A stretch of DNA of 62,356 bases from Streptosporangiales bacterium (GTDB taxonomy: Bacteria; Actinomycetota; Actinomycetes; Streptosporangiales; WHST01). Position numbers and translations under genes: made by a program. Location: positions 1-62,356 of the forward strand of contig WHST01000024.1 in NCBI GenBank assembly GCA_009379955.1, read 5' to 3'. The notes under the pieces were generated by a model, which had not been told where the DNA came from, searched no databases, and saw only the letters and a list, made by a program, of their open reading frames with translations. Of the stretch, positions 5,043-18,657 are shown piece by piece (the first letter of the stretch is position 1; each line of letters begins with the position of its first letter).

Positions 5043-5100
5043 GGACAGAGTCTCATGTCGATGTAGTTCTGGCCGGTGACGTCGACCCCTCCTCGAGGAG
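5043..5100 (+). promoter_or_regulatory. tmm leader sharing blocks with the gmaS leader
   Basis: GGACAGAGT at 5043-5051 and CTGGCCGGTGACGTC at 5069-5083 recur in front of gmaS at 11939-11947 (identical) and 11951-11965 (CTGGCCGTGGACGTC). In both genes CGAGGAG is followed by exactly eight bases and then ATG. The second block ends 25-26 bases before the start codon in both cases. A shared regulator site or a duplicated promoter-leader is inferred. The -10 and -35 boxes could not be assigned. Confidence 0.5.
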
Positions 5101-5108
5101 CGTATGAC

Positions 5109-6446
5109 ATGACTTCACGTGTCGCTGTCGTCGGCGCAGGACCCAGTGGACTCAGCGCGTTGCACGCGTTCGAGGAGGCGCGCAAGAAGGGCGCCGACGT
5201 GCCCGAGCTCGTCTGCTTCGAGAAGCAGAGCGACTGGGCCGGCCTCTGGAACTACACGTGGCGCACCGGACTGGACGAGTTCGGCCAGCCCGTGCACGGA
5301 AGCATGTACAGGTACCTGTGGTCCAACGGCCCGAAGGAGTGCCTGGAGTTCGCCGACTACACGTTCGACGAGCACTTCGGCAAGCCGATCCCCTCGTTCC
5401 CGCCACGCGAGGTGCTGCACGACTACGTCACGGGCCGGGCGAAGAAGGACAACCTGCAGAAGTTCATCCAGTTCAACACCGAGGTCAAGTGGATCAGCTA
5501 CGACGAGGACGAGGGCACGTTCGACGTCCTCGTCGAGTCACTGACCGAGGGACAGACCCGCACCGAGCAGTTCGACTACGTCATCGTCGCCACCGGTCAC
5601 TTCTCCACCCCGAACGTTCCCTCGTACGAGGGGTTCGAGCAGTTCCCCGGCCGGATCATGCACTCGCACGACTTCAGGGACGCGCGGGAGTTCGAGGGCA
5701 GGAACCTGCTCGTCGTCGGCAGCAGCTACTCGGCCGAGGACGTCGCGTTGCAGTCGAAGAAGTACGGCGCGAAGTCGGTGACCATCTCGTACCGCTCCGC
5801 TCCCATGGGCTTCCCCTGGCCCGAGGGCATCGCCGAGGTGCCGTTGCTGGTGAAGCTCGACGGCAAGACCGCGCACTTCACCGACGGCAGCACCCGTGAG
5901 GTCGACGCGATCGTGCTGTGCACGGGCTACCTGCACAACCTGTCGTTCATCGAGGAGAGCCTGCGGCTGCGTACCTCGAACGTGCTCTACACACCCGGCC
6001 TCTACAAGGGTGTCTTCTGGCTGGACAACCCGAAGCTGATGTACCTCAGCATGCAGGACCAGTACTACACGTTCACGCTCTTCGACGCCGAGGCCTGGTA
6101 CTCACGCGACTACGTGCTCGGCAGGATCGAGCTGCCGTCCCGCGCGGAGATGGCCGACGACATCGCGCTGTGGCGTGACCGGCAGGACAAGCTCTCCAGC
6201 GCGTTCGAGGAGATCGACTTCCAGGCCGACCACATGGTCGACCTGCTGAAGGACGTCGACTACCCGAAGTTCGACGTCGATCTCACCCGTGCCCACTTCA
6301 AGAAGTGGGAGCACGACAAGGAGGAGAGCATCATCGGCTACCGCGACCGCGGCTTCTCCTCGCCGTGCACGTCGAGCGAGGCGCCCGTCCATCACACGCC
6401 CTGGTGGACCGAGATGGACGACTCCATGGCCCGCTTCCTTGGGTAG
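5109..6446 (+). CDS. tmm: Trimethylamine monooxygenase (flavin-containing)
   Basis: This 445-aa FAD/NADPH enzyme oxidises trimethylamine to trimethylamine N-oxide in the cytoplasm. The N-terminal VVGAGPSGLSAL (from residue 7) binds FAD, and FPGRIMHSHDF is the flavin-monooxygenase fingerprint. VVGSSYSAED is the second dinucleotide motif; its Tyr207 is at the position reported as important in bacterial Tmm. Long stretches such as CFEKQSDWAGLWNYTWRTGL and YLWSNGPKECLEFADY are characteristic of Tmm rather than of Baeyer-Villiger enzymes, and length equals known Tmm. The ATG at 5109 follows CGAGGAG by eight bases. The tdm operon converges on it from the other strand, 26 bp beyond the stop. Confidence 0.9.
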   Translation: MTSRVAVVGAGPSGLSALHAFEEARKKGADVPELVCFEKQSDWAGLWNYTWRTGLDEFGQPVHGSMYRYLWSNGPKECLEFADYTFDEHFGKPIPSFPPREVLHDYVTGRAKKDNLQKFIQFNTEVKWISYDEDEGTFDVLVESLTEGQTRTEQFDYVIVATGHFSTPNVPSYEGFEQFPGRIMHSHDFRDAREFEGRNLLVVGSSYSAEDVALQSKKYGAKSVTISYRSAPMGFPWPEGIAEVPLLVKLDGKTAHFTDGSTREVDAIVLCTGYLHNLSFIEESLRLRTSNVLYTPGLYKGVFWLDNPKLMYLSMQDQYYTFTLFDAEAWYSRDYVLGRIELPSRAEMADDIALWRDRQDKLSSAFEEIDFQADHMVDLLKDVDYPKFDVDLTRAHFKKWEHDKEESIIGYRDRGFSSPCTSSEAPVHHTPWWTEMDDSMARFLG

Positions 6447-6472: not shown

Positions 6473-7159
6473 CTAGCGGGCACGGCGCGCGAGGGCGCGG
6501 TCCAGCACCCGGTCGGTGAGGTCGTACGCGCGCTGCCGCGACTCCGCCTGCCTGGCGACCGTCTCCGCCATCAGCGCGTCGCCGTCGACGCCGACCCTCG
6601 CCAGCGAGTCGGTGTAACGGTCGGCCCAGGTCTGCGCGCTCTCCACCGTCGCCTCCGGGTGGAACTGCGTGCCCGCGTGCGGACCGTACGCGAACGCCTG
6701 AACGCCCTCGGACGTGCGCGCCACCTCCATGCCTGCGGGCAGGTCGTGGATGACGTCGAGGTGCCACACGAGCCACGGGCCCGGCTCGACCAGCTCAGGC
6801 GCCGTGGTGTCGACGGTGAGCCAGCCGATCTCCGGCCGTTCCATCCTGCGCACCCGACCGCCGAGGACGCGGGCGAGCAGCTGGGCGCCGAAGCAGATGC
6901 CGAACACGGGTACGTCGGCCTCGACAGCCGTGCTGAGCAGCTGCCACTCGTCGGGCAGGTGCGGCAACGACTCGTCGTACGCGGCATCGTCGGAACCGAG
7001 CGGCACGACCAGGTCGAAGTCCCGCGGGTCGGGCAACGAACCGTCCTGTGCGCGCACGACCTCGGCGCGCGCACCGCGCTGCGCCAACCGCTCCCCCACA
7101 TAGCCGGGCGGACAGTCGTCCTGATGCTGGACGTACAGGACGCGGAGCGCCTCGGCCAT
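6473..7159 (-). CDS. Class I glutamine amidotransferase-like protein of the TMA cluster
   Basis: This 228-aa protein has the class I GATase triad: nucleophile elbow GICFGAQLLA (Cys near residue 89) and FHPEAT with the catalytic His and Glu near residue 166. Stand-alone proteins of this type (GuaA-like, PuuD/YvdE relatives) hydrolyse gamma-glutamyl bonds or pass ammonia to a partner. It lies 8 bp downstream of tdm and is certainly cotranscribed with it. In this setting it may act on gamma-glutamylated amines or supply glutamate. Amidotransferase-like genes also accompany dimethylamine-oxidation genes in other bacteria, but no dmmABC is present here. Confidence 0.75.
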   Translation of the reverse strand: MAEALRVLYVQHQDDCPPGYVGERLAQRGARAEVVRAQDGSLPDPRDFDLVVPLGSDDAAYDESLPHLPDEWQLLSTAVEADVPVFGICFGAQLLARVLGGRVRRMERPEIGWLTVDTTAPELVEPGPWLVWHLDVIHDLPAGMEVARTSEGVQAFAYGPHAGTQFHPEATVESAQTWADRYTDSLARVGVDGDALMAETVARQAESRQRAYDLTDRVLDRALARRAR

Positions 7160-7167
7160 GACTCACC

Positions 7168-9519
7168 TCAGGAACGGGGGCGGGCCTTCTCCGGGTCGTA
7201 GAAGGGGAAGCGGACGACCTCGGCGGGGATGCGCTTGCGATGACCGTCCAGCTTCCCGACCTCGACCTCGGTGCCGATGTCCGCGTACTGCACGGCCATC
7301 CGGCACAGCGCGATGTTCTTGCGGAGGATCGGCGAACGCGTCGCGCTCGTCACCACGCCGACCTGCGACCTGCCGACGTGCACGCAGTCGCCGTGCTCCG
7401 CCGGCTCGTTGCCGGCGAGCTCGAGTCCCACCAGGGTGCGCTGCGGGCTCGCCTTGCGGGACAGCAGCGCGTCCCTGCCGACGAAGTCGTCGTCCTTCGT
7501 CTTCAACGGGACCGTGAAGCCGATGCCGGCCTCGAACGGGTCGGTCTGGTCGTCGAAGTCGTAGCCGGCGAACACCAGACCGGACTCGATCCGCAGCATG
7601 TCGAGCGCGTCGAGGCCCAGCGGACGGAGACCGTACGACTCCCCCGCCGCCCAGACGGCGTCCCACAGCGCGGGTCCGTCCTTCGGGTGCACCCAGATCT
7701 CGTAGCCGAGCTCTCCCGAGTACCCGGTGCGCGACACGAGCAGCGGGATGCCGTTGTGGTCACCGAGCCTGCCGATCGCGAACCTGAACCAGGTGAGGTC
7801 GGTGAAGTCCGGTTGCGTGGGAGGCGTCCACACCAGCTCCGTCAGCAGGTCCCTGCTCGACGGCCCCTGGACGGCGAGATTGTGCAGCTGGTCGGTGGAG
7901 TGCTTCACCCACACCCGGTCGAGCCCCAGCCGTTCCGCCTGCTCCCGCAGCCACACGCCGTCGTACTCGTCACCGCCGACGAACCTGAAGTTGGTGTCGC
8001 CGAGCCGGAACACGGTGCAGTCGTCGATCATCCCGCCGGTGTCGTTGCACATCGCGGAGTACACGACCTGACCGTGCGAGAGCTTACGGATATTGCGTGT
8101 CACGCACGCCTGCAGCAACGCCTCCGCGTCCGGGCCGAGCACCTCGAACTTGCGCAGCGGTGACAGGTCCATGACCGCCGCATGCTCCCTGCACGCCCAG
8201 TACTCCTCGAGTGCACCGTGGTTGTCGAAGCTCGTCGGCAGCCAGTAGCCGCGGTACTCGGTCAGCTGCCCGGTGCGCTCGGCGATCCGCGTGTGGAACG
8301 CGGTCTCCTTGGTCAACGTGGCCTCGGACTCCGGGGTGACCCGATGCGAGATGGCCATGGAGAACTTCCGTTCCGCGTCGTACACCCGGACGTGGATGTC
8401 GGTGGGCACCCACGCGTTCGCCGGGTCGATGTCGTCGGGACAGGCGGACGACGCGCAGACCAGATCGGTCATCGCGCGCATCAGCACGTAGTCGCCAGGC
8501 CGTGACCAGGGCTCGTCGAAGACCAGCAGGTTCGCGTCGTCGAAGGCAGTGTTGTAGAAGAGGTTCAGCGCCGGCCAGCCCTTACGCGGCGCGATGCGGT
8601 AACGGTCGAGCTGCGCGTTGAAGTTGTCGGTGCAGTTGACGTGGCCCGGGTAGCCGAAGTCCTCGTAGTACTTGGCGTTGCAGGCGAGCCCGAACGTGTC
8701 GTGCCTGCCGACGGTGTCGCGCACGATCTCGATGAGCGGCTGGGTGTCCTGGTCGTAGAACTTGCCGAACAGGCCCGGCTGCGGGTACGCGTTGCCCATG
8801 AAGTACCTGGTCGTGGTCGAGTCGAGACCGCGCTCGACGCCTTCCTGCAACCGGTGGCCGTGGAACGCGAGGAAGTCCGAGCACTGCCGGCCCTCCACGT
8901 CGATCACCTGGATGTACTGGCCCTTCTTCACCTCGTAGCTGCTCACCGTCGCGGCGTCGATGCGCATGTCGAGCACCGGGTCGGCCAGTGGCTCAGGCAC
9001 CATGGCCCCGTGCGAGGGACGTTCCCGCGCCCTGCGCACCTCGAGCATCAGCTCCGACGGCGGGTTGGCGGCCTCCTCGACCACACTCATCACCCGAGCC
9101 GGTGCGGCGACGAGCACCCGTACCGGTTCCTGCGCGGTGAACGTCTCGCTGGCCCCCGCCGGCGACCACTCGCCGAACAGCTCGGTCGCGGTCGTCTGCG
9201 TCGGGTCCACCTCGGCCGCCGCGAGCACGCCGATGATGTGGTCGCGTCCCCCGCCGGGTTCCGCCGCGGCCAGCGCGCGCAGGGTACACGCGGGAGTGTT
9301 GGCGGTGACGCCGAGCGCGGCACCGTCAGCACCGCCGGCGCCGAGCACTGTCAGCTCGGCGGGCTGCCTGCCGGCGCGGTCGATCACGGTCAACCGGTCG
9401 CCGCCGTCCAACGCAACGGCCGTCACGCCGCCGGGACGCACCAGGTAGGTCTCCAGGCCCGGCTCCAGCGGGATGAGTCCGGGCAGTCGCAGTCGCGGTG
9501 CGGGTGTGACTACGGTCAT
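7168..9519 (-). CDS. tdm: Trimethylamine N-oxide demethylase (DUF1989-GcvT fusion)
   Basis: This 783-aa enzyme cleaves TMAO to dimethylamine and formaldehyde. The N-terminal half (to about residue 370) is a DUF1989 domain with the cysteines expected for the zinc site (EGRQCSDFLAFHG, then FGLACNAKYYEDFG and GHVNCTDNFN). The C-terminal half is a GcvT-like tetrahydrofolate-binding domain (RKFEVLGPDAEALLQ, RTGYSGELGYEIW, GIGFTVPLK) that can capture formaldehyde. The order and length match described Tdm. The ATG at 9519 starts MTVVTPAPRLRLPG; the frame upstream is not protein-like. It is preceded by a 36-aa gene ending 8 bp upstream, and followed by the amidotransferase. Confidence 0.88.
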   Translation of the reverse strand: MTVVTPAPRLRLPGLIPLEPGLETYLVRPGGVTAVALDGGDRLTVIDRAGRQPAELTVLGAGGADGAALGVTANTPACTLRALAAAEPGGGRDHIIGVLAAAEVDPTQTTATELFGEWSPAGASETFTAQEPVRVLVAAPARVMSVVEEAANPPSELMLEVRRARERPSHGAMVPEPLADPVLDMRIDAATVSSYEVKKGQYIQVIDVEGRQCSDFLAFHGHRLQEGVERGLDSTTTRYFMGNAYPQPGLFGKFYDQDTQPLIEIVRDTVGRHDTFGLACNAKYYEDFGYPGHVNCTDNFNAQLDRYRIAPRKGWPALNLFYNTAFDDANLLVFDEPWSRPGDYVLMRAMTDLVCASSACPDDIDPANAWVPTDIHVRVYDAERKFSMAISHRVTPESEATLTKETAFHTRIAERTGQLTEYRGYWLPTSFDNHGALEEYWACREHAAVMDLSPLRKFEVLGPDAEALLQACVTRNIRKLSHGQVVYSAMCNDTGGMIDDCTVFRLGDTNFRFVGGDEYDGVWLREQAERLGLDRVWVKHSTDQLHNLAVQGPSSRDLLTELVWTPPTQPDFTDLTWFRFAIGRLGDHNGIPLLVSRTGYSGELGYEIWVHPKDGPALWDAVWAAGESYGLRPLGLDALDMLRIESGLVFAGYDFDDQTDPFEAGIGFTVPLKTKDDDFVGRDALLSRKASPQRTLVGLELAGNEPAEHGDCVHVGRSQVGVVTSATRSPILRKNIALCRMAVQYADIGTEVEVGKLDGHRKRIPAEVVRFPFYDPEKARPRS

Positions 9520-9527
9520 GGTCCCCC

Positions 9528-9638
9528 TCAGAGCTTCTTGACGAACGTCCTCGCCTGGTAGAGGGCGAGCGCGGGCAGGCCGACGAACAGGATCACGGCG
9601 AGCACGGGCCCGAACGCGTACGCGAAGAAGTCCATCAT
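9528..9638 (-). CDS. 36-aa single-helix membrane peptide in the tdm operon
   Basis: This short gene reads MMDFFAYAFGPVLAVILFVG and continues LPALALYQARTFVKKL. It has one transmembrane helix (about residues 5-27) and a short basic tail. Its ATG overlaps the stop of the 99-aa gene (ATGA at 9635-9638), and tdm starts 8 bp after its stop, so it is embedded in a tightly coupled operon. No family is recognised. By analogy with small subunits of membrane transporters it may associate with the DMT transporter encoded two genes upstream. That is inference only. Confidence 0.7.
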   Translation of the reverse strand: MMDFFAYAFGPVLAVILFVGLPALALYQARTFVKKL

Positions 9639-9934
9639 GATGTGGCCTCCAGTAGTCCCGACTGTCGCATGCGTTCGCGGCCGAAGTCGTTGAGAGCGAA
9701 CTTGAACAGGAGCCGTTCCTTGCCGAACGACTTCTCCGGGTCGATCGTCGTCTCGATCTCGTCGACGAGCCCACCGGAGAAGAGGTCGGTGAGGGTGAGC
9801 CGCACCGTGCCGTACCAGTACTCGCCCGCGAGGCCGTACTCCTCGATCACCGCGGCCGCGATCTCGTGGTCCCAGCTCGGTCCCCGCTTCGCGAGCAGCT
9901 GCAGCATGTAACCCTTCATGTGCAGGTCGCTCAT
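9635..9934 (-). CDS. Conserved small protein of the TMA operon (99 aa, possibly winged-helix)
   Basis: The protein begins MSDLHMKGYMLQLLAKRGPS and has a predicted helix-rich N-terminal half, then a DLFSGGLVDEIE segment and FALNDFGRERMRQSG. The pattern of MLQLLAKRG, a recognition-like helix and a beta hairpin recalls PadR- or MarR-type winged helices, but I cannot place it firmly. It overlaps the upstream transporter stop by 4 bp and the downstream 36-aa gene by 4 bp, so all three are translated together. Role unknown: a small regulator or adaptor is possible. Confidence 0.7.
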   Translation of the reverse strand: MSDLHMKGYMLQLLAKRGPSWDHEIAAAVIEEYGLAGEYWYGTVRLTLTDLFSGGLVDEIETTIDPEKSFGKERLLFKFALNDFGRERMRQSGLLEATS

Positions 9935-11013
9935 GAGGACACCTCCTTCGTGGGGGCAGCCGAGGCGCGTGCGGGCACCGCCCTGATCACCTCGAGCACG
10001 TCACGTTTCTCGGTGAACAGGACGAAGCTGCCGATGACCGTGATGACCGCACCGATCGCGAACTGGATGCCCGGCGGCTCCAGCGTGAAGATGAACAGCC
10101 AGACCAGCGCGAGCGGGCCGTAGAGCGCCGCGATGGCCTGGCCGCGGCCGACCCCGATGAGCGGGAACGACTTGTACCAGGACACGTAGCAGAACCCGAA
10201 GGTGAGTCCGAGTAGGACGAGCAGCAGCAGGACGTTCGGGTTGGTGAGCGACCTGCCGACGGTGGCGAAGAACTCGCCGCCGGCGAGGATGATCGTGATC
10301 GGCACGGCGACGATGAGCCACAGCGCGACCTCGGCGGTGAACCGCAACGTCAGGCCGACGTCCGGGTCACTGACGTCGAGCGCGCGTCCCGCGATCGCGC
10401 CCTCGAGTCCCCAGCCGACGAACGCGAGCGCGCCACCGACGTAACCGAGCAAGCCGCCGCCACCCGCGCCCGTCAGCTCACCGACGATGCCAGGCGCGAA
10501 GATGACGACGCCGCCCGCGACGATGACGATGATGCCGATCGCCGCCTGTTTGGTGATGCGCTCGCTGTACCAGACCTTCGCGACGAGCGCGCCGATGATC
10601 GGGTACAGCAGTCCGGCGACAGCGGCGAACGCGGCGCCGACGTAGGCGATGGCGAGGATCGAGCCGAAGATGGCCAGCATGCCGGCGAGGCCCGCGGGTG
10701 CGTACCAGCGGGAGATCTTCACCTGCCGCATGGTGCGGACGTAGTCCTTGGTCTTGCCGAGCACACCGATCCACACGAACATCGCGAGGAGGACGGCGAT
10801 CGCGTTGAGCGACGTGATCACCATCGCCGCGAGCAGGTAGTCACCCGTGGTCTCGGCCAGGTCGACGAACGGGCCCTCCGAGTAGATCGCGGTGCCGGGC
10901 ACGTACCAGGCGCCCCAGAGCACCGCGCACCAGATCGCCCAGATGAAACCCCAGCGAACCTGGCGGTTGCGGTGGTCGACTCGAAGTCGTTGCGCCTTGG
11001 CCTGGTCGGACAT
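9931..11013 (-). CDS. DMT-superfamily (EamA-like) transporter, candidate methylated-amine permease
   Basis: This 360-aa protein has about ten transmembrane helices in two halves and a short hydrophilic N-terminus (MSDQAKAQRLRVDHRN). AGLLYPIIGALVAKVWYSER in the first half resembles DMT transporters. As the first gene of the tdm operon it is a good candidate for import of TMA or TMAO, or export of dimethylamine, since no TMAO ABC transporter is present. The ATG at 11013 follows GGAGGAG; an in-frame extension of 34 residues upstream has no such site. It is probably transcribed separately from the XRE gene 176 bp upstream. Confidence 0.8.
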   Translation of the reverse strand: MSDQAKAQRLRVDHRNRQVRWGFIWAIWCAVLWGAWYVPGTAIYSEGPFVDLAETTGDYLLAAMVITSLNAIAVLLAMFVWIGVLGKTKDYVRTMRQVKISRWYAPAGLAGMLAIFGSILAIAYVGAAFAAVAGLLYPIIGALVAKVWYSERITKQAAIGIIVIVAGGVVIFAPGIVGELTGAGGGGLLGYVGGALAFVGWGLEGAIAGRALDVSDPDVGLTLRFTAEVALWLIVAVPITIILAGGEFFATVGRSLTNPNVLLLLVLLGLTFGFCYVSWYKSFPLIGVGRGQAIAALYGPLALVWLFIFTLEPPGIQFAIGAVITVIGSFVLFTEKRDVLEVIRAVPARASAAPTKEVSS

Positions 11014-11160: not shown

Positions 11161-11179
11161 GCAGCGAATTCAACGCTGC
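11161..11179. promoter_or_regulatory. Inverted repeat between the XRE gene and the tdm operon
   Basis: GCAGCG-N7-CGCTGC lies 10 bp beyond the XRE stop and about 150 bp upstream of the DMT transporter start. The wide AT-containing centre (AATTCAA) argues for a protein-binding site, for example for the XRE-cupin regulator, but a weak terminator for the XRE gene is equally possible. Confidence 0.35.
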
Positions 11180-11189
11180 GCTACCAGCG

Positions 11190-11813
11190 TCAGCCTCCTG
11201 GATGCACCGATTTCACGGCGATGAACTGGATCGGCAGCGTGATCAGCTCGCCGGGCCCGTGCATCACCTCGCCGACGAACTGCATGGAGTCACCGGGTTC
11301 GAGGACATACCGCGAGCTGCCGTAGCTGTACTCCATCTTCCCCGAGATCATGAAGATCAGCTCGGTGCCCGCGTGCTGGTACAGCGGGAAGACCTCCGAG
11401 CGGTCGGTCAAGGTCACCAGCATCGGCTCGAGGCTGTCGTGCGGCGCGCGCATCGCGCCGAGCATCTGGTACCTGTGCCCCGGGCCCGAGCCCTTGTGGT
11501 GGATGTCGAGGCCCTTGCCCGCCTTGACGAAGACCATGTCCTGCTCTTCGGACAACCCGCGGAAGAACGCCGTCACGGGCACGGTGAGCGCCTCGGACAG
11601 GCGCACCAGGGTCATCAGGCTCGGCGACGCCTGGGCGTTCTCGATCTTCGACAGCATGCTCTTGGAGACGCCGCTCTCGTCGGCGAGCCGGCCGACCGTC
11701 CAGCCCCTGTCCTGGCGGAAGTCGCGCACGCGCTCCGCGATGACGGCACCGAGCGCCTCGCCGATACCACCGGCCACGACGAGCTCGTCGCCCGTCGTCT
11801 CGTCCTCAGTCAT
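11190..11813 (-). CDS. XRE-family regulator with C-terminal cupin sensor domain
   Basis: This 207-aa regulator has an N-terminal helix-turn-helix (about residues 17-83, including GRLADESGVSKSMLSKIENA) and a C-terminal cupin_2 domain (about residues 130-200, with YQHAGTELIFMISGKMEY and LEPGDSMQF). Such proteins bind a small-molecule effector in the cupin and control the neighbouring catabolic genes. It is divergent from gmaS across 178 bp and lies upstream of the tdm operon in the same direction. It is therefore placed to control both halves of the amine pathway. Confidence 0.85.
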   Translation of the reverse strand: MTEDETTGDELVVAGGIGEALGAVIAERVRDFRQDRGWTVGRLADESGVSKSMLSKIENAQASPSLMTLVRLSEALTVPVTAFFRGLSEEQDMVFVKAGKGLDIHHKGSGPGHRYQMLGAMRAPHDSLEPMLVTLTDRSEVFPLYQHAGTELIFMISGKMEYSYGSSRYVLEPGDSMQFVGEVMHGPGELITLPIQFIAVKSVHPGG

Positions 11814-11991: not shown

Positions 11992-13389
11992 ATGAGTTCC
12001 GATCTCGAACAGTTCGTCGGCCGACCAGGCCGCGAGGACCAGATCGCCGAGGTACGTCGCGAGATCGACGAACGCGAGGTCGAGTACATCTACCTCCAGT
12101 TCGTCTCGGTCACCGGCAGGATCGTCGGCAAGGGGGTGCCCGCCAAACACTGGGAGAAGTTCGCCCACGACGGCTTCCAGCTCGTCTACGGCGCGACGGC
12201 GAACCTCTTCACCGACCGGCACGGGGACTACATCGGCTACGGCGCGGAGGCGCGTGAGCTGATCGGCATCCCCGACGTCGAGACGTTCTGCGTCCTGCCC
12301 TGGGACAGCAAGACCGCGCGGGTGTTCTGCACGCTGTTCCGCGGTCGTGAGGAGGACGTCGACGGCGGCGCGTTCCTGACGTCCGACTGCCGGGGCAACC
12401 TGCGACGCCTGCACGAGGACTTCGAACGCGAGACCGGACTGCACCTGCGGGTCGGCACCGAGCCGGAGATGATGTGGCTCAAGCTCAACCCCGACGGCAC
12501 ACCGTCCGTCGAGGGCAAGACGAAGCCCTACTGCTACCACATCGACCAGTTCGCCGAGCTGCAGCCGTTGATCCACAAGGTGAACGAGTACGCCACGGCG
12601 ATGGGTCTCGACATGATCCAGGGCGACCACGAGGACGCGCCCGGGCAGCTCGAGCTGAACTGGCAGTTCGACCGCGCGGAACTCACCGCCGACCGGCTCA
12701 CCACCTACCGGCAGATCTGCCGTCAGGTGGGACGCGAGCTCGGCGCGTTCCCCTGCTTCATGCCGAAGCCGTTCATGGGCGTCTCGGCGAACGGCTGCCA
12801 CCACAACATCTCCCTCTGGACCGGCGACGAGAACGCGTTCCTGCCCGACGGCGACAACCCGCGGATGCCGAGCAAGGTCGGCCTCGCCTCGATCGGCGGC
12901 GTGCTCGAGCACCTCGACGCGCTCACCTGCCTCACCGCGCCGACGGTGAACTCGTACCGGAGGCTCTGGGACACCGGCTTCTGGGCGCCGTTGTACGCAG
13001 ACTGGGGCTTCCAGAACCGCACGACGGCGCTGCGGGTCAGCGCTCCCGGCAGGTTCGAGTACCGCTCGGTCGACTCGGCGGTCAACCCGTACCTGTCGAT
13101 GGCCGGCCTGCTGAAGGCGATGGAGGACGGCATCGCCCGCAACGTCGACCCGGGCCAGCCGGAGGAGCGCAACATCTACGACGCGATGGCCGAGGGCAAG
13201 CAGGTACGCAAGATCCCGATGACCCTCGGCGACGCGCTCGACGCCCTTCGAGCCGACGAGGTCGTCAAGAGCGCGCTGCCCGGTGACATGTATCGAGTCT
13301 TCGAGCACTACAAGCGCGACGAGTGGGAGCGCTTCTGCGCGCAGGTGACCGAGTGGGACGTCGCGGAGTACCTGGACATCCTGCCCTGA
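11992..13389 (+). CDS. gmaS: Gamma-glutamylmethylamide synthetase (glutamine synthetase family)
   Basis: This 465-aa enzyme joins methylamine to glutamate with ATP, giving gamma-glutamylmethylamide, the first step of the indirect methylamine pathway. The GS fold is clear: an N-terminal beta-grasp with LQFVSVTGRIVGKGVPA, catalytic-domain motifs GTEPEMMWLK, DHEDAPGQLELNW, ANGCHHNISLW and SAPGRFEYRSVDSAVNPYL. Context distinguishes it from true GlnA and from polyamine-type GlnA3, since mgsA, mgsB and mgsC follow directly. The ATG has the ribosome binding site CGAGGAG. It starts a six-gene plus-strand run to 18657, divergent from the XRE-cupin regulator. Confidence 0.88.
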   Translation: MSSDLEQFVGRPGREDQIAEVRREIDEREVEYIYLQFVSVTGRIVGKGVPAKHWEKFAHDGFQLVYGATANLFTDRHGDYIGYGAEARELIGIPDVETFCVLPWDSKTARVFCTLFRGREEDVDGGAFLTSDCRGNLRRLHEDFERETGLHLRVGTEPEMMWLKLNPDGTPSVEGKTKPYCYHIDQFAELQPLIHKVNEYATAMGLDMIQGDHEDAPGQLELNWQFDRAELTADRLTTYRQICRQVGRELGAFPCFMPKPFMGVSANGCHHNISLWTGDENAFLPDGDNPRMPSKVGLASIGGVLEHLDALTCLTAPTVNSYRRLWDTGFWAPLYADWGFQNRTTALRVSAPGRFEYRSVDSAVNPYLSMAGLLKAMEDGIARNVDPGQPEERNIYDAMAEGKQVRKIPMTLGDALDALRADEVVKSALPGDMYRVFEHYKRDEWERFCAQVTEWDVAEYLDILP

Positions 13390-13434
13390 TTCCCCCCACC
13401 CACCCTCACTCCGTACGGGGAAGGAGCCGCGCCG

Positions 13435-14364
13435 ATGTGCGGGATCGCCGGCATCATCCATCGAGGCGACAGCGGAGCCGTCGGGCACGAGATGGCATCC
13501 ATGCTGCAGGCCATGAGACACCGCGGCCCGGACTCCACGGGCTACGCGCTGTACGGCGAGAAGACCGACCTCCTCGTCATGCGGTTCAAGCTCGCCGACC
13601 CGAACGACTCCGGCGACTTCTCCTACGGGGACCGGCTCGCGCGCAGCAGGCGCGAGGTGGAGTCGCGGCTCGCCAAGATCGGCGCGACCATCGACAGGGT
13701 CGACGGCGCGAACGAGTACGCGTACCGGGCGACGTTCCGTTACGAGGGTGAGCTGAAGCCGCTCGCCGACTACGTCGAGGACGTGCCCGGCGCCGAGATC
13801 CTCTCCATCGGCTACTCGCTCGAGATCGTGAAGGACCTCGGCGACGCCGCGACGGTCGCCGAGCAGTACCGGCTGGACGACTTCCAGGGCACGCACGCGA
13901 TCGGCCACGTCAGGATGGCGACCGAGTCCGACGTCGACATCGCGGGCGCGCACCCGTACTGGGCGTACCCGTTCTCCGACGTCGCGGTCGTGCACAACGG
14001 ACAGCTGACGAACTACCACGGGTGGCGGCGCCGGCTGGAACGACTCGGGCACAGGTTCCAGTCCGAATGCGACTCGGAGATCATCGCCGTCTACCTCGCC
14101 CAGCGGATGGCCGACGGGCTGTCCCTGGAGACGGCGATGAAGCAGAGCCTCGACGACCTCGACGGCGTGTTCACGTACCTGGTGGTGACCGAGGACAGCC
14201 TCGGCATGGCCAAGGACGAGATGGCCGCCAAGCCGCTCGTCCTGTACGAGACCGACGACCTTGTCGCAATGGCGTCGGAGGAGGGCTCGATCCGTGCGGT
14301 GGTGAACCGGGAGATCGACACGTACGACCCCTACGAAGGGGAGGTGATGGTGTGGCACCGGTGA
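13435..14364 (+). CDS. mgsA: N-methylglutamate synthase subunit A (class II glutamine amidotransferase domain)
   Basis: This 309-aa protein begins MCGIAGI, with Cys2 free after Met removal as the N-terminal nucleophile. The amidotransferase fold shows MRHRGPDSTGYALYG, HVRMATESDVDIAGAHPYWA, VVHNGQLTNYHGWRRRLE and CDSEIIAVYLAQRMADG. In the N-methylglutamate synthase complex this subunit releases methylamine from gamma-glutamylmethylamide for transfer to 2-oxoglutarate or glutamate on the MgsC subunit. It lies 45 bp after gmaS, and its 3' end overlaps mgsB. Confidence 0.85.
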   Translation: MCGIAGIIHRGDSGAVGHEMASMLQAMRHRGPDSTGYALYGEKTDLLVMRFKLADPNDSGDFSYGDRLARSRREVESRLAKIGATIDRVDGANEYAYRATFRYEGELKPLADYVEDVPGAEILSIGYSLEIVKDLGDAATVAEQYRLDDFQGTHAIGHVRMATESDVDIAGAHPYWAYPFSDVAVVHNGQLTNYHGWRRRLERLGHRFQSECDSEIIAVYLAQRMADGLSLETAMKQSLDDLDGVFTYLVVTEDSLGMAKDEMAAKPLVLYETDDLVAMASEEGSIRAVVNREIDTYDPYEGEVMVWHR

Positions 14365-15137
14365 CTCAGCGCGGTAGGTACGACAACCGCGGCCTGGCCG
14401 AGCCCGACACCGTCGCACCCGAGACGGCAGTCGTCAGCGGCCACACCGCGACGCTCGACGCGGCCGACCTGACCACGCGCCAGGTGAACCTCGAGCTCCG
14501 CAGGTTGCTCTACTCCTGCGGCGTCACCGAGGTCACCCTGCAGAACCCGGGCGCGCGTCACTCGCTCGCCGTGGGGCTGCTGCTGCGGTGCAGGATCACG
14601 ATCGAGGGCAGCCTCGGCTACTTCGGCTGCGGCCTGATCGACGGTCCCGAGATCCACATCACGGGACGCGTCGGCTGGTCGGTGGCGGAGAACATGATGT
14701 CCGGCGTCATCGTCATCGACAAGAATGCGGGCTCGCTCACCGGTGCCGCGCTGCGCGGCGGTGACCTCGTGGTGCGAGGTCACGTCGGCGCGCGGACGGG
14801 CATCGACCAGAAGGGCGGCACGATCATCGTCGGCGGCAACGCCGGCTCGATGACCGGGTTCATGATGCAGCGTGGGCGGCAGATCCTCTGCGGTGACGTC
14901 GGCCACGGCATGGGCGACTCGATGTACGACGGCGCGATCTACGTCGCGGGCAAGGTGGCGTCGCTCGGCATCGACTGCGTGGAGGCGGAGCTGGTCGCGG
15001 AGGACGAGGAGTTCCTCGACCGCAAGTTCAAGAGCTACCGGCTCGACCGTCCAGACACCTTCCGCAAGTTCGTGTGCGGCAAGAAGTTGTGGAACTACGA
15101 CAACTTGGAGCCGAACGAACGCAAGCTCGTCCTGTAG
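14352..15137 (+). CDS. mgsB: N-methylglutamate synthase subunit B (GXGXG beta-helix)
   Basis: This 261-aa protein matches the C-terminal GXGXG domain of glutamate synthase, a right-handed beta-helix of Gly-rich repeats (GYFGCGLIDGPEIHITG, AGSLTGAALRGGDLVVRG, VGHGMGDSMYDGAIYVAG). It holds the synthase subunits together rather than catalysing. Start choice: GTG 14352 lies eight bases after AGGGGAGG; GTG 14361 in the same frame is the alternative. Either way the gene overlaps mgsA and is translationally coupled. It ends 10 bp before mgsC. Confidence 0.85.
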   Translation: MAPVTQRGRYDNRGLAEPDTVAPETAVVSGHTATLDAADLTTRQVNLELRRLLYSCGVTEVTLQNPGARHSLAVGLLLRCRITIEGSLGYFGCGLIDGPEIHITGRVGWSVAENMMSGVIVIDKNAGSLTGAALRGGDLVVRGHVGARTGIDQKGGTIIVGGNAGSMTGFMMQRGRQILCGDVGHGMGDSMYDGAIYVAGKVASLGIDCVEAELVAEDEEFLDRKFKSYRLDRPDTFRKFVCGKKLWNYDNLEPNERKLVL

Positions 15138-15147
15138 AGGGGTAGGC

Positions 15148-16557
15148 ATGTCCAACGACGAGTCGGTGCACGCCCTCGGCCGCAGCCGCATCTTCACGCC
15201 CGAGGTCATCAACGACATCCACACGAAGGCCGAGCTCGGTCGGTACCGGATGCGCGGCTTCTCGATGTTCAAGCCGATCCCGCACTGGGACGAGCTGATG
15301 TTCCTGCCGGGCACGCTGACCAGGTTCGTCATCGAGGGGTACCGGGAGAAGTGCACCACCAAGACGGTGCTCGGCGCGCGGTTCGCCAAGAAGCCGCTCG
15401 AGCTCGACATCCCCGTCTACATCACGGGGATGAGCTTCGGCGCGCTGTCACTCGAGGCGAAGATGGCGCTGGCCAAGGGCGCCTCGATGGCCGGTACCGC
15501 GACGTGCTCCGGCGAGGGCGGGATGATCCCGCCGGAACGCGACCTGTCCACCAAGTGGTACTACCAGGTGATCCAGAGCCGGTACGGCTTCAACCCGCAC
15601 CACCTGATGCTGGCCGACGGCGTCGAGTTCTTCATCGGGCAGGGCTGCAAGGTCGGCCTCGGCGGGCACCTGATGGGCCAGAAGGTGACGGAGCAGGTCG
15701 CCGAGATGCGCTCATTGCCGGCCGGCATCGACCAGCGCAGCCCGGCACGTCATCCCGACTGGCTCGGCCCCGACGACCTGTCGCTCAAGGTGCAGGAGAT
15801 CCGCGAGGCCACCGACTACCAGGTGCCGATCCAGCTCAAGCTCGGCGCCGCACGCGTCTACGACGACGTGCGCATGGCCGCGAAGTGCGGGCCCGACATC
15901 ATCTACCTCGACGGGGCTGAAGGTGGAACCGGTGCGGGCCCGCACCTCGCCACGGAGGAGACCGGCGTGCCACTGATGTCGGCGATACCCGAGGCACGTC
16001 GCGCGCTCGAGGACGTCGGCCTCGCGGACGAGATCGACCTCGTCGTCGCGGGCGGGATACGTAACGGTGGCGACGTCGCGAAGTGCATCGCGCTCGGCGC
16101 GACCGCCGTCGCGATCGGGCACTCGTCGCTGATGGCGTTGAACTGCAACAAGGAGATCCCAGGCGTCACCGACTACGAGGGCACGATCGGGGTGCCGGCC
16201 GGCCAGTGCTACCACTGCCACACCGGACGCTGCCCCGTCGGCATCACGACCCAGGACCCCGAGCTGCGCAAGCGGCTGAAGGTCGACGAGGCCGCCGAGC
16301 GCGTCTACAACTTCCTGCACACGCTGACCCTCGAGGTGCAGATGCTGGCGCGCGCGTGCGGCAAGACGAACGTGCACAGCCTCGAGCCCGAGGACCTCTG
16401 CGCGCTCACCACGGAGGCGGCGGCGATGGCCAAGGTGCCGCTGGCCGGCACCAACTACGTGCCGGGCGTCACCGAGGAGCGCACGCTCGGCGAGATCAAG
16501 GCGCTGCTGGAGAAGCACGTGGCGAACGACGGCATGGGAGGCGGCCACGATGTCTGA
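15148..16557 (+). CDS. mgsC: N-methylglutamate synthase subunit C (FMN and Fe-S glutamate synthase-like)
   Basis: This 469-aa protein is the catalytic TIM-barrel subunit. LDGAEGGTGAGP and VVAGGIRNGGDVAKCIALGA form the FMN-binding part, and CYHCHTGRCPVGITTQDP carries the three cysteines of the 3Fe-4S cluster. It resembles the FMN-binding domain of glutamate synthase and here makes N-methylglutamate from released methylamine. The ATG at 15148 follows AGAGGGG. Its last 8 bp overlap the next gene. N-methylglutamate dehydrogenase (mgdABCD), needed to regenerate glutamate and release formaldehyde, is absent from the window. Confidence 0.87.
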   Translation: MSNDESVHALGRSRIFTPEVINDIHTKAELGRYRMRGFSMFKPIPHWDELMFLPGTLTRFVIEGYREKCTTKTVLGARFAKKPLELDIPVYITGMSFGALSLEAKMALAKGASMAGTATCSGEGGMIPPERDLSTKWYYQVIQSRYGFNPHHLMLADGVEFFIGQGCKVGLGGHLMGQKVTEQVAEMRSLPAGIDQRSPARHPDWLGPDDLSLKVQEIREATDYQVPIQLKLGAARVYDDVRMAAKCGPDIIYLDGAEGGTGAGPHLATEETGVPLMSAIPEARRALEDVGLADEIDLVVAGGIRNGGDVAKCIALGATAVAIGHSSLMALNCNKEIPGVTDYEGTIGVPAGQCYHCHTGRCPVGITTQDPELRKRLKVDEAAERVYNFLHTLTLEVQMLARACGKTNVHSLEPEDLCALTTEAAAMAKVPLAGTNYVPGVTEERTLGEIKALLEKHVANDGMGGGHDV

Positions 16558-17017
16558 CGTCTCTCCGAAGACCCAGTTCGACCTGGCCGACCGCCGGCTG
16601 TCCGGCACCAGCGGCATCGACACCGAGGAGCTCACCGGGCGGACGTTCCCCTACCAGTTCGACCAGAGCCTGGTCGACGACATCGACCTGGTCGCCGCGA
16701 CACCCGGCGAGGACCTGAACTGGCTCGAGGACATCCACCTGATGACCGAGGACGGCGTGCCCGCCGTCTTCGACCGCTACACCAACGCATTCCTCAAGAT
16801 CCACTTCGAGATCCCCGCCGGGCGCGAGGACGAGTACGCGCGCAAGGTGCTGATCAAGCACCTGCAGGAGGGCAACTCGTACGGCATCTGGCTCAAACAC
16901 CAGCACGCGAAGTTCCCCCAGCCCGAGCTCGGGTCGTGGCTGCAGGGGTCGGCGACGGTCGGCGAGGACTGGAGCCCACCCCGACTGGAGGGCTGGCAGC
17001 CACCGGTCGGGCACTGA
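16550..17017 (+). CDS. Uncharacterised protein coupled to mgsC (155 aa)
   Basis: A soluble acidic protein beginning MSDVSPKTQFDLADRRLSGT, with no signal peptide or membrane helix. The middle (FDRYTNAFLKIHFEIPAGRE, then ARKVLIKHLQEGNSYGIWLK) looks like an alpha/beta fold; the C-terminus is Trp- and Pro-rich. I do not recognise a family. It overlaps mgsC by 8 bp, so it is translated with the N-methylglutamate synthase subunits and before the permease. It could be an extra subunit, a folding factor or an allosteric regulator. It has no similarity that I can see to Dmm or Mgd subunits. Confidence 0.75.
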   Translation: MSDVSPKTQFDLADRRLSGTSGIDTEELTGRTFPYQFDQSLVDDIDLVAATPGEDLNWLEDIHLMTEDGVPAVFDRYTNAFLKIHFEIPAGREDEYARKVLIKHLQEGNSYGIWLKHQHAKFPQPELGSWLQGSATVGEDWSPPRLEGWQPPVGH

Positions 17018-17058
17018 CCGACACCACCAGCGGGGGTGAGAAATCTGGGGAGCCCGTC

Positions 17059-18657
17059 ATGACGGACAACACGGCGACTCCATCGACGGTCACGGGTACC
17101 GCCGACCACGGTCTGCAGCGCACGATCGGCTGGAAGGGCGCGTTCTGGATCGCCAGCGGCGTCCCGGCGCTCGTGCTGTTCTCCGTCGGCTCGATCGCCG
17201 CGACCATCGGCACGCCGTCCGTCCTGGTATGGACGGTGTCGGTGGTGCTCGGGCTGGTGCAGTGCCTCACCTACGCGGAGATCGCGGGCATGTACCCGCA
17301 GAAGTCCGGCGGCGCGTCCGTCTACGGGGCGATGGCGTGGCTGCCGTACTCGAAGTTCATCGCGCCGGTCTCCGTCTGGTGCAACTGGCTCGCCTGGTCA
17401 CCCGTGCTCACCATCGGCGCGAGCCTCGCCGCGGGGTACGTGCTCACCGCGCTGTTCCCCGCGGACGCCGCGATCAACACCTGGTCGCTCTCGCTCGTCG
17501 ACCTCGGGTTCCTGAAGGACGGCCTGGCGATCAGGCTGAACGCGCAGTTCGTCATCGCGGTGGCGTTCCTGCTGCTGGTGTTCGCGCTGCAGCACCACGG
17601 CATCCTGCGTGCGGCCCGGGTGCAGATGATCGTGGGCATCGCGGTGCTCGTCCCGCTCGTCGTCGTCGGCGTCGTACCGCTGCTCACCGGTGACGTCGTC
17701 AGCACGAGCTTCGCGCCGTTCGCGCCACTGAGCGGAGCGTGGGACCTGGACGGCTGGACGTTGTTCGCCGGCGGCCTGTTCCTCGCGGCGTGGTCGGCGT
17801 ACGCCTTCGAGACCGCGATCTGTTACACGCGCGAGCTGAAGGACCCTGGCCGCGACACGGTGAAGGCGATCGTCTCCGCCGGGCTGGTGTGCCTGTTGAT
17901 CTACACGTTGGTGCCGTTCAGCTTCCAGGGAGCCCTCGGCGTCGAGCGACTGCTGACCGACCCCATCGTGGCCGGCACGGGTGTGGCCTCCGCGATGGTC
18001 GACATGGTCGGCGGTGGGGCCGTGATCGGCAACCTGCTCACCGTGATGCTGATCCTGGCACTGCTGCTCACGATCATGACCACGATGGCCGGCTCGTCGC
18101 GCACCCTGTACCAGGGGTCGCTGGACGGCTGGCTGCCGAAGTACCTGGGCAAGGCGAACAAGCACGGCGCACCGACCCGCGCGATGTGGACCGACCTGGC
18201 GTTCAACCTGGTGCTGCTGCTGTTGAGCGACACGGTGTTCGTGCTCGCGGCGTCCACCGTCTGCTACATGATCTTCAACTTCCTCAACCTGAACGCCGGC
18301 TGGCTGCACCGCATCGACAACAGGGACGCGCACCGACCGTGGCGCGCACCGACCGCGCTCATCGCGATCGGCGGCATCCTCGGCTTCGGCAACGCGCTGC
18401 TGCTCGGCTGGGGCGCGGCGGTCTGGGGACCGGGTGCGCTGTGGACCGGCCTGGTGTTCGCGGCGCTGATCGTGCCGGTGTTCCTGTTCCGCCACTACGG
18501 CAGGGACAAGGGCACGTTCCCGCCGTCCATGTACGAGGGCCCGGAAGGCACCGCCGTAGCGCCGGTACGCCGCGCGGGCGTCCTCCCGTACCTGACGATC
18601 GCAGGCGGCATCACGATGGTGGTCGTCGGGCAGGTCCTCTCCCACCTCGCCGGCTGA
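17059..18657 (+). CDS. APC-superfamily amino acid/amine permease
   Basis: This 532-aa protein has about 12-14 transmembrane helices. The first helix region (GWKGAFWIASGVPALVLFSV) and EIAGMYPQKSGGASVYGAMA carry the APC consensus, and SAYAFETAICYTRELKDPGR is the conserved loop of this superfamily. As the last gene of the gmaS-mgs run it is a likely importer of mono- or dimethylamine, or exporter/importer of N-methylglutamate. The ATG at 17059 lies 41 bp after the preceding stop; the nearest purine stretch (GGGGAG) is about nine bases upstream. It converges with the amidohydrolase gene 4 bp away. Confidence 0.82.
   Translation: MTDNTATPSTVTGTADHGLQRTIGWKGAFWIASGVPALVLFSVGSIAATIGTPSVLVWTVSVVLGLVQCLTYAEIAGMYPQKSGGASVYGAMAWLPYSKFIAPVSVWCNWLAWSPVLTIGASLAAGYVLTALFPADAAINTWSLSLVDLGFLKDGLAIRLNAQFVIAVAFLLLVFALQHHGILRAARVQMIVGIAVLVPLVVVGVVPLLTGDVVSTSFAPFAPLSGAWDLDGWTLFAGGLFLAAWSAYAFETAICYTRELKDPGRDTVKAIVSAGLVCLLIYTLVPFSFQGALGVERLLTDPIVAGTGVASAMVDMVGGGAVIGNLLTVMLILALLLTIMTTMAGSSRTLYQGSLDGWLPKYLGKANKHGAPTRAMWTDLAFNLVLLLLSDTVFVLAASTVCYMIFNFLNLNAGWLHRIDNRDAHRPWRAPTALIAIGGILGFGNALLLGWGAAVWGPGALWTGLVFAALIVPVFLFRHYGRDKGTFPPSMYEGPEGTAVAPVRRAGVLPYLTIAGGITMVVVGQVLSHLAG

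Follow-up and report, generated by a model that had tools for sequence, protein, structure and literature searches.

A 36-amino-acid (aa) membrane protein encoded beside tdm in a Streptosporangiales bacterium is, by sequence comparison, the product of a real, conserved gene. It is probably a single-span microprotein that acts as a small subunit or dedicated regulator of a DMT-superfamily permease, and the permease most likely imports trimethylamine (TMA). The gene is real and conserved, and it is linked exclusively to the genes for the permease (DMT) and a 99-aa PadR-like protein and, beyond these, to enzymes of TMA metabolism. The three genes together constitute a single transferable module. 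The window, i.e., the whole stretch of DNA analyzed (62,356 nucleotides), contains the following features around this module.

5076..6446 (+), tmm, trimethylamine monooxygenase (NF058570, 781 bits; cut-off, 675)
7168..9519 (-), tdm, TMAO demethylase (NF053776, 1183 bits; cut-off, 1100), a neighbor and no obligate part of the DMT-99-36 unit
9528..9638 (-), 36-aa single-helix membrane protein, with a predicted transmembrane segment at residues 8-26, an acidic N-terminus, and a basic C-terminal tail, ARTFVKKL
9635..9934 (-), PadR-like winged-helix protein of 99 aa (from a fold model), the invariant companion
9931..11013 (-), DMT-superfamily permease (EamA), proposed trimethylamine permease, starting at MSDQAKAQRL
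11161..11179 (-), inverted repeat GCAGCG-TTGAATT-CGCTGC, candidate operator, found by eye only and with no chance test
11190..11813 (-), HTH-cupin regulator, a separate protein upstream of the cassette
17059..18657 (+), TmoP, TMAO permease of the APC superfamily (NF053774, 799 bits; cut-off, 690)

Gene junctions and predicted product

The 36-aa open reading frame (ORF) begins with ATG at 9638, ends with a stop codon at 9528-9530, and encodes MMDFFAYAFGPVLAVILFVGLPALALYQARTFVKKL. Its start and the end of the 99-aa gene share 4 bp (ATGA), an overlap also present between the 99-aa gene and DMT, and 8 bp (GGGGGACC) separate it from the ATG of tdm. The motif GGAGG precedes its ATG by 7 nt and recurs in most orthologs. 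The product has one hydrophobic segment, whose best Kyte-Doolittle 19-mer scores 2.36 (residues 8-26). Likewise, 25 orthologs have a single hydrophobic helix, with values of 1.7-2.7 over 19 residues. The first-pass annotation had described a frame joined to the operon by these two junctions, a product with a single transmembrane helix, and tdm as its neighbor, and the coordinates, the hydropathy profile, and the NF053776 score bear out all three. The positive-inside rule predicts that the protein is most likely oriented N-out/C-in. Scans against Pfam and NCBIfam, including small transporter subunits of the MetS type, gave no match over cut-off, and the sub-threshold matches were limited to DUF1206, DUF3149, MerF, and MtrF.

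Conservation of the 36-aa gene

Orthologs with 42-82% identity occur in actinobacteria, Paracoccus, Azoarcus, and Cupriavidus (Actinomycetota, Alphaproteobacteria, and Betaproteobacteria). The tail ALYxARTFVKKL is conserved among them, and L21, L26, A29, R30, F32, and V33 are invariant in the C-terminal half of the alignment. A scan for tdm in one genome per species gave 66 named loci, 14 of which contain the whole gene by tblastn (61-82% identity), always behind the DMT and 99-aa genes. The E values for the peptide in contigs of other organisms were 1e-9 to 1e-14 by tblastn, and a separate profile search gave 1e-17 to 1e-22 per genome. Changes within close pairs are mostly synonymous, with few informative sites (dN 0 and dS 0.14 for L123/L124, 0.03 and 0.15 for L048/L092, 0 and 0.24 for L114/L116, and 0.04 and 0.32 for L041/L099). 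The pN/pS pooled across all pairs, 0.53, is saturated and was left out of the argument.

An open frame by itself proves nothing, because two further frames of this stretch (+2 and -0) are likewise open in the majority of orthologs, and it was dropped as evidence. Conservation across phyla, taken with the synonymous excess in close pairs, excludes a chance frame. A leader peptide, a translational coupler, or a chance frame, none of which would be a functional protein, might be expected from so short an ORF with ATGA coupling and two other open frames. Such readings are refuted by the conservation and retain next to no probability. Beyond the frame, conservation across phyla extends to the amino acid sequence, some residues of which are invariant, and the synonymous excess points the same way. 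The gene also has its own ribosome-binding site, which is kept where tens of bases part it from the 99-aa gene (L048 and L092), and it is present without tdm downstream.

A three-gene module

Linkage was assessed in 346 Pseudonocardiaceae genomes, which were searched with the 36-aa profile without reference to tdm and, separately, with a DMT profile. The 36-aa profile matched 15 genomes, with 16 complete copies and a fragment among them, and the DMT profile matched the identical 15 and none besides. The chance of an identical set is 1/C(346,15), or ~1e-26, before allowing for relatedness. Some of these genomes contributed sequences to the profiles; their detection was expected, but the exclusivity was not. 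For 15 of the 16 full copies, the 36-aa gene comes directly after DMT and the 99-aa gene. For the remaining one, the contig opens with a 99-aa gene cut short, the 36-aa gene is next, and a DMT gene is on another contig. In tdm loci that gave no match to DMT (Methylocella, Sinorhizobium, marine gammaproteobacteria, and Streptomyces), both small genes are absent. On these comparisons, the 36-aa gene is strictly linked to those for DMT and the 99-aa protein.

Two loci indicate how the cassette comes and goes. L040 is closely related to the cluster in the window, and its tdm is 85% identical. There, tdm comes 114 bp after the regulator without an intervening cassette, and the sequence on either side of the missing cassette aligns to the window. 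In L039, a single deletion runs from early in DMT to the second half of the 36-aa gene. Absence of the whole cassette in the one and loss by one deletion in the other imply that all three genes are acquired and lost together. The remnant (L039:6417-6690) consists of the DMT N-terminus fused to the end of the 36-aa gene, and tdm downstream of it is intact. When the same small frame was sought in other genomes, as the first-pass annotation had suggested, it was intact in all bacterial loci with the DMT and 99-aa genes, the sole exception being this remnant, which has lost most of all three genes. Where DMT was missing, the frame was missing too.

The placement of the gene “inside the tdm operon” holds in part: it adjoins tdm in the window, but the unit is DMT-99-36, some copies of which lie by tmm without tdm or in clusters with trimethylamine dehydrogenase (TMADH). 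Linkage to tdm itself was considered and rejected, as most tdm loci lack the gene and the cassettes of L130 and L131 lead into tmm with tdm absent. The same distribution bears on a function with another target in the pathway, as an anchor for Tmm or Tdm or as a subunit of TmoP. The 8 bp between the gene and tdm in the window, and its location mostly near tmm and tdm in actinobacteria, would suit such a role. However, copies occur not only without tdm but also, on a Paracoccus plasmid carrying TMADH, without tmm and tdm nearby, and tmm or TmoP loci lacking DMT also lack the gene. A role of this kind is disfavored and very unlikely.

The genomes containing L130, L131, and L132 (G1428 and G1456) have two cassette copies each, one per genome leading into tmm without tdm.

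Pairwise distances of the 36-aa protein correlate no more than moderately with those of DMT (r = 0.59); the values for the 99-aa protein and TDM are r = 0.64 and r = 0.55. The correlation barely separates DMT from TDM as partner, and coevolution adds little. The module looks rare and patchy in the genomes searched: the 99-aa profile matched only the window among 345 genomes of the window's own order and none of 385 alphaproteobacterial genomes, a set that had no positive control. Viral contigs gave no match.

Copies outside the Actinomycetota

The 99-aa protein is encoded in 4 of 72,556 plasmid records (two of Paracoccus aminovorans, one of Azoarcus sp. KH32C, and one of Cupriavidus oxalaticus), and all four also encode DMT. 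A 36-37-aa gene follows the 99-aa gene in the three records that were read, and the fourth has it by search. When the Paracoccus peptide alone was searched against all plasmids, the Azoarcus and Cupriavidus copies ranked right after those of Paracoccus (E 0.01-0.02). The 36-aa position is blank for Paracoccus and Azoarcus in the plasmid gene table, which is known to be incomplete, and annotation tends to skip the gene.

All four records contain TMADH, at 72% identity or more to the Paracoccus enzyme (73-100% for the other records), which in turn matches PDB 1djn over its full length (1315 bits). The module lies near TMADH in Paracoccus aminovorans, Azoarcus KH32C, and Cupriavidus oxalaticus. 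In P. aminovorans, TMADH is in the same gene run as the cassette, and tmm and tdm are both absent nearby.

A DMT gene on a plasmid of the methylotrophic methanogen (archaeon) Methanohalobium evestigatum (L106:6001-7086) encodes a protein 40% identical to that of the window and is near an IS630 transposase. At this locus, it stands without the 99-aa and 36-aa genes. The wider DMT family is therefore not always in need of the small genes.

Substrate of the permease

DMT matches Pfam EamA with 39.6 bits (cut-off, 28.2) and is modeled with a 10-helix DMT fold (pLDDT 83). The closest solved structure by sequence profile is LicB (E 3e-4), which is also the best match by fold (E 1e-7, TM 0.60-0.80). 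LicB, the pneumococcal choline importer of the DMT superfamily (PDB 7b0k and 7paf), has a substrate that bears a trimethylammonium group. Identity between the two is ~15%, and LicB has 292 residues versus 360 in DMT. We know of no small subunit of LicB.

Assignment of DMT as TmoP was rejected. TmoP belongs to the same pathway and gene cluster but is a different gene of the APC superfamily, and it is the protein at 17059..18657, and not DMT, that matches NF053774. TMAO is thus covered by a separate permease, and this, together with the likeness to LicB, makes TMA rather than TMAO the likely substrate. The feature common to DMT loci across phyla is a TMA-using enzyme, Tmm or TMADH. Import of TMA is our best guess, drawn from the neighbors and LicB only. 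DMT could instead carry dimethylamine, choline, or a quaternary amine, or function as an exporter, with the 36-aa protein still its subunit; such a reading overlaps the preferred one and differs solely in substrate. It is consistent with choline import by LicB, the nearest structure, and has a small but appreciable likelihood; against it, the neighbors shared across phyla, Tmm and TMADH, are users of TMA.

The 99-aa companion

Modeling gives the 99-aa protein a winged-helix fold (pLDDT 91.7, order H-H-H-E-E-H), for which TA0346, RosR, and PadR are the best matches. Pfam PadR matches only 1 of 18 members of the family (E 8e-4). A putative DNA-binding protein, it may be a conventional repressor of the module or, alternatively, partner the permease from the cytosolic side.

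The 36-aa protein might then work with the winged-helix protein rather than with DMT, serving as its membrane tether, so that the two together control transcription in response to amine or to the state of the permease. The 99-aa protein accompanies the 36-aa protein as invariably as DMT does, folds as a PadR/RosR winged helix, and is followed slightly better by the distances of the 36-aa protein (r = 0.64 versus 0.59). An HTH-cupin regulator is already present upstream, so the 99-aa protein may serve another role. However, the 36-aa protein has hardly any cytosolic part beyond ARTFVKKL for holding a regulator, DMT is equally strictly linked to its gene, and a PadR-like protein can serve as a plain soluble repressor. 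A tether is unlikely.

Proposed role of the 36-aa protein and comparison with known systems

The proposal of the first-pass annotation that the protein is a small subunit of the adjacent DMT transporter is still the best explanation, in view of the exclusive linkage to DMT. How the protein sits in the membrane, contacts DMT, and acts, and what DMT carries, we infer as follows. DMT would import TMA, Tmm would oxidize it to TMAO, and Tdm would demethylate the TMAO. The 36-aa helix may pack on the exterior of the ten DMT helices, its basic tail facing the cytosol, and would there stabilize the permease or tune its activity or turnover, as do AcrZ and MgtS. A further possibility, itself unlikely, is a three-part methylamine permease shared by bacteria and archaea, with the microprotein linking permease state to the winged-helix protein. 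If so, transport itself would control pathway expression.

The protein is in the same size class (about 28-49 aa) as AcrZ, MgtS, MgtU, and KdpF, the last of which is also a small membrane protein partner of one transporter. The transporters of these four belong to other families (RND, PiT, and P-type ATPase), and the Pfam and NCBIfam scans found no sequence relation between the 36-aa protein and any of them. AcrZ, MgtS, and MgtU, all small membrane proteins, each bind a single transporter and modulate its activity or stability (PMC10710835).

A strikingly similar arrangement occurs in Methanosarcina mazei. sORF_05 (MM_RS18880), reported from Ribo-seq in 2024, is translated and membrane associated and belongs to a dimethylamine degradation operon with MM_1691, annotated as a TMA permease, and the hypothetical protein MM_1692 (PMC11456600). 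Its authors speculate about a role as a subunit of the permease, report that overexpression slowed growth, and found homologues within Methanosarcinaceae in an archaeal search (PMC11456600). Like the 36-aa gene, sORF_05 encodes a small hydrophobic helix, shares its operon with genes for a permease and for a small hypothetical protein, and has a methylotrophic context. Unlike the 36-aa gene, sORF_05 is archaeal and lies in a dimethylamine degradation operon, and the likeness of the two is one of arrangement and description. The nearest archaeal proxy for comparison is the 40% identical Methanohalobium plasmid DMT, which lacks both small genes. By arrangement, sORF_05 is likely the archaeal counterpart of the bacterial family. 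Consequently, the statement that a small subunit would be new for methylated-amine uptake was too strong, since a small membrane protein at the equivalent location, with the same speculation, was described in M. mazei in 2024. What is new is the bacterial 36-aa family; small transporter partners in general and the M. mazei arrangement were known. The bacterial family backs the speculation made for the one archaeal protein.

The 36-aa family, which spans phyla and has no Pfam or NCBIfam model, would join a short list of one-helix transporter partners. To our knowledge, no dedicated trimethylamine importer has been described in aerobic methylotrophic bacteria, and we know of no established small subunit in the DMT superfamily. 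The DMT-99-36 module points to such an importer, in the form of three defined, transferable genes.

Other features of the cluster

The inverted repeat at 11161-11179 sits between the HTH-cupin regulator and the start of DMT. The sequence CCTCGAGGGGTTTACAG beside it is kept in L040, which has no cassette. A class I glutamine amidotransferase-like gene (6473..7159, -) lies between tmm and tdm and matches no equivalog over cut-off; such genes recur near tmm and tdm in many actinobacterial loci. The region at 11994..18657 (+) contains a glutamine synthetase-like gene, three glutamate-synthase-like genes, which we take to be of the N-methylglutamate pathway type, and TmoP. With these genes, the cluster of the window is a nearly complete TMA-to-methylamine set in an actinobacterium.
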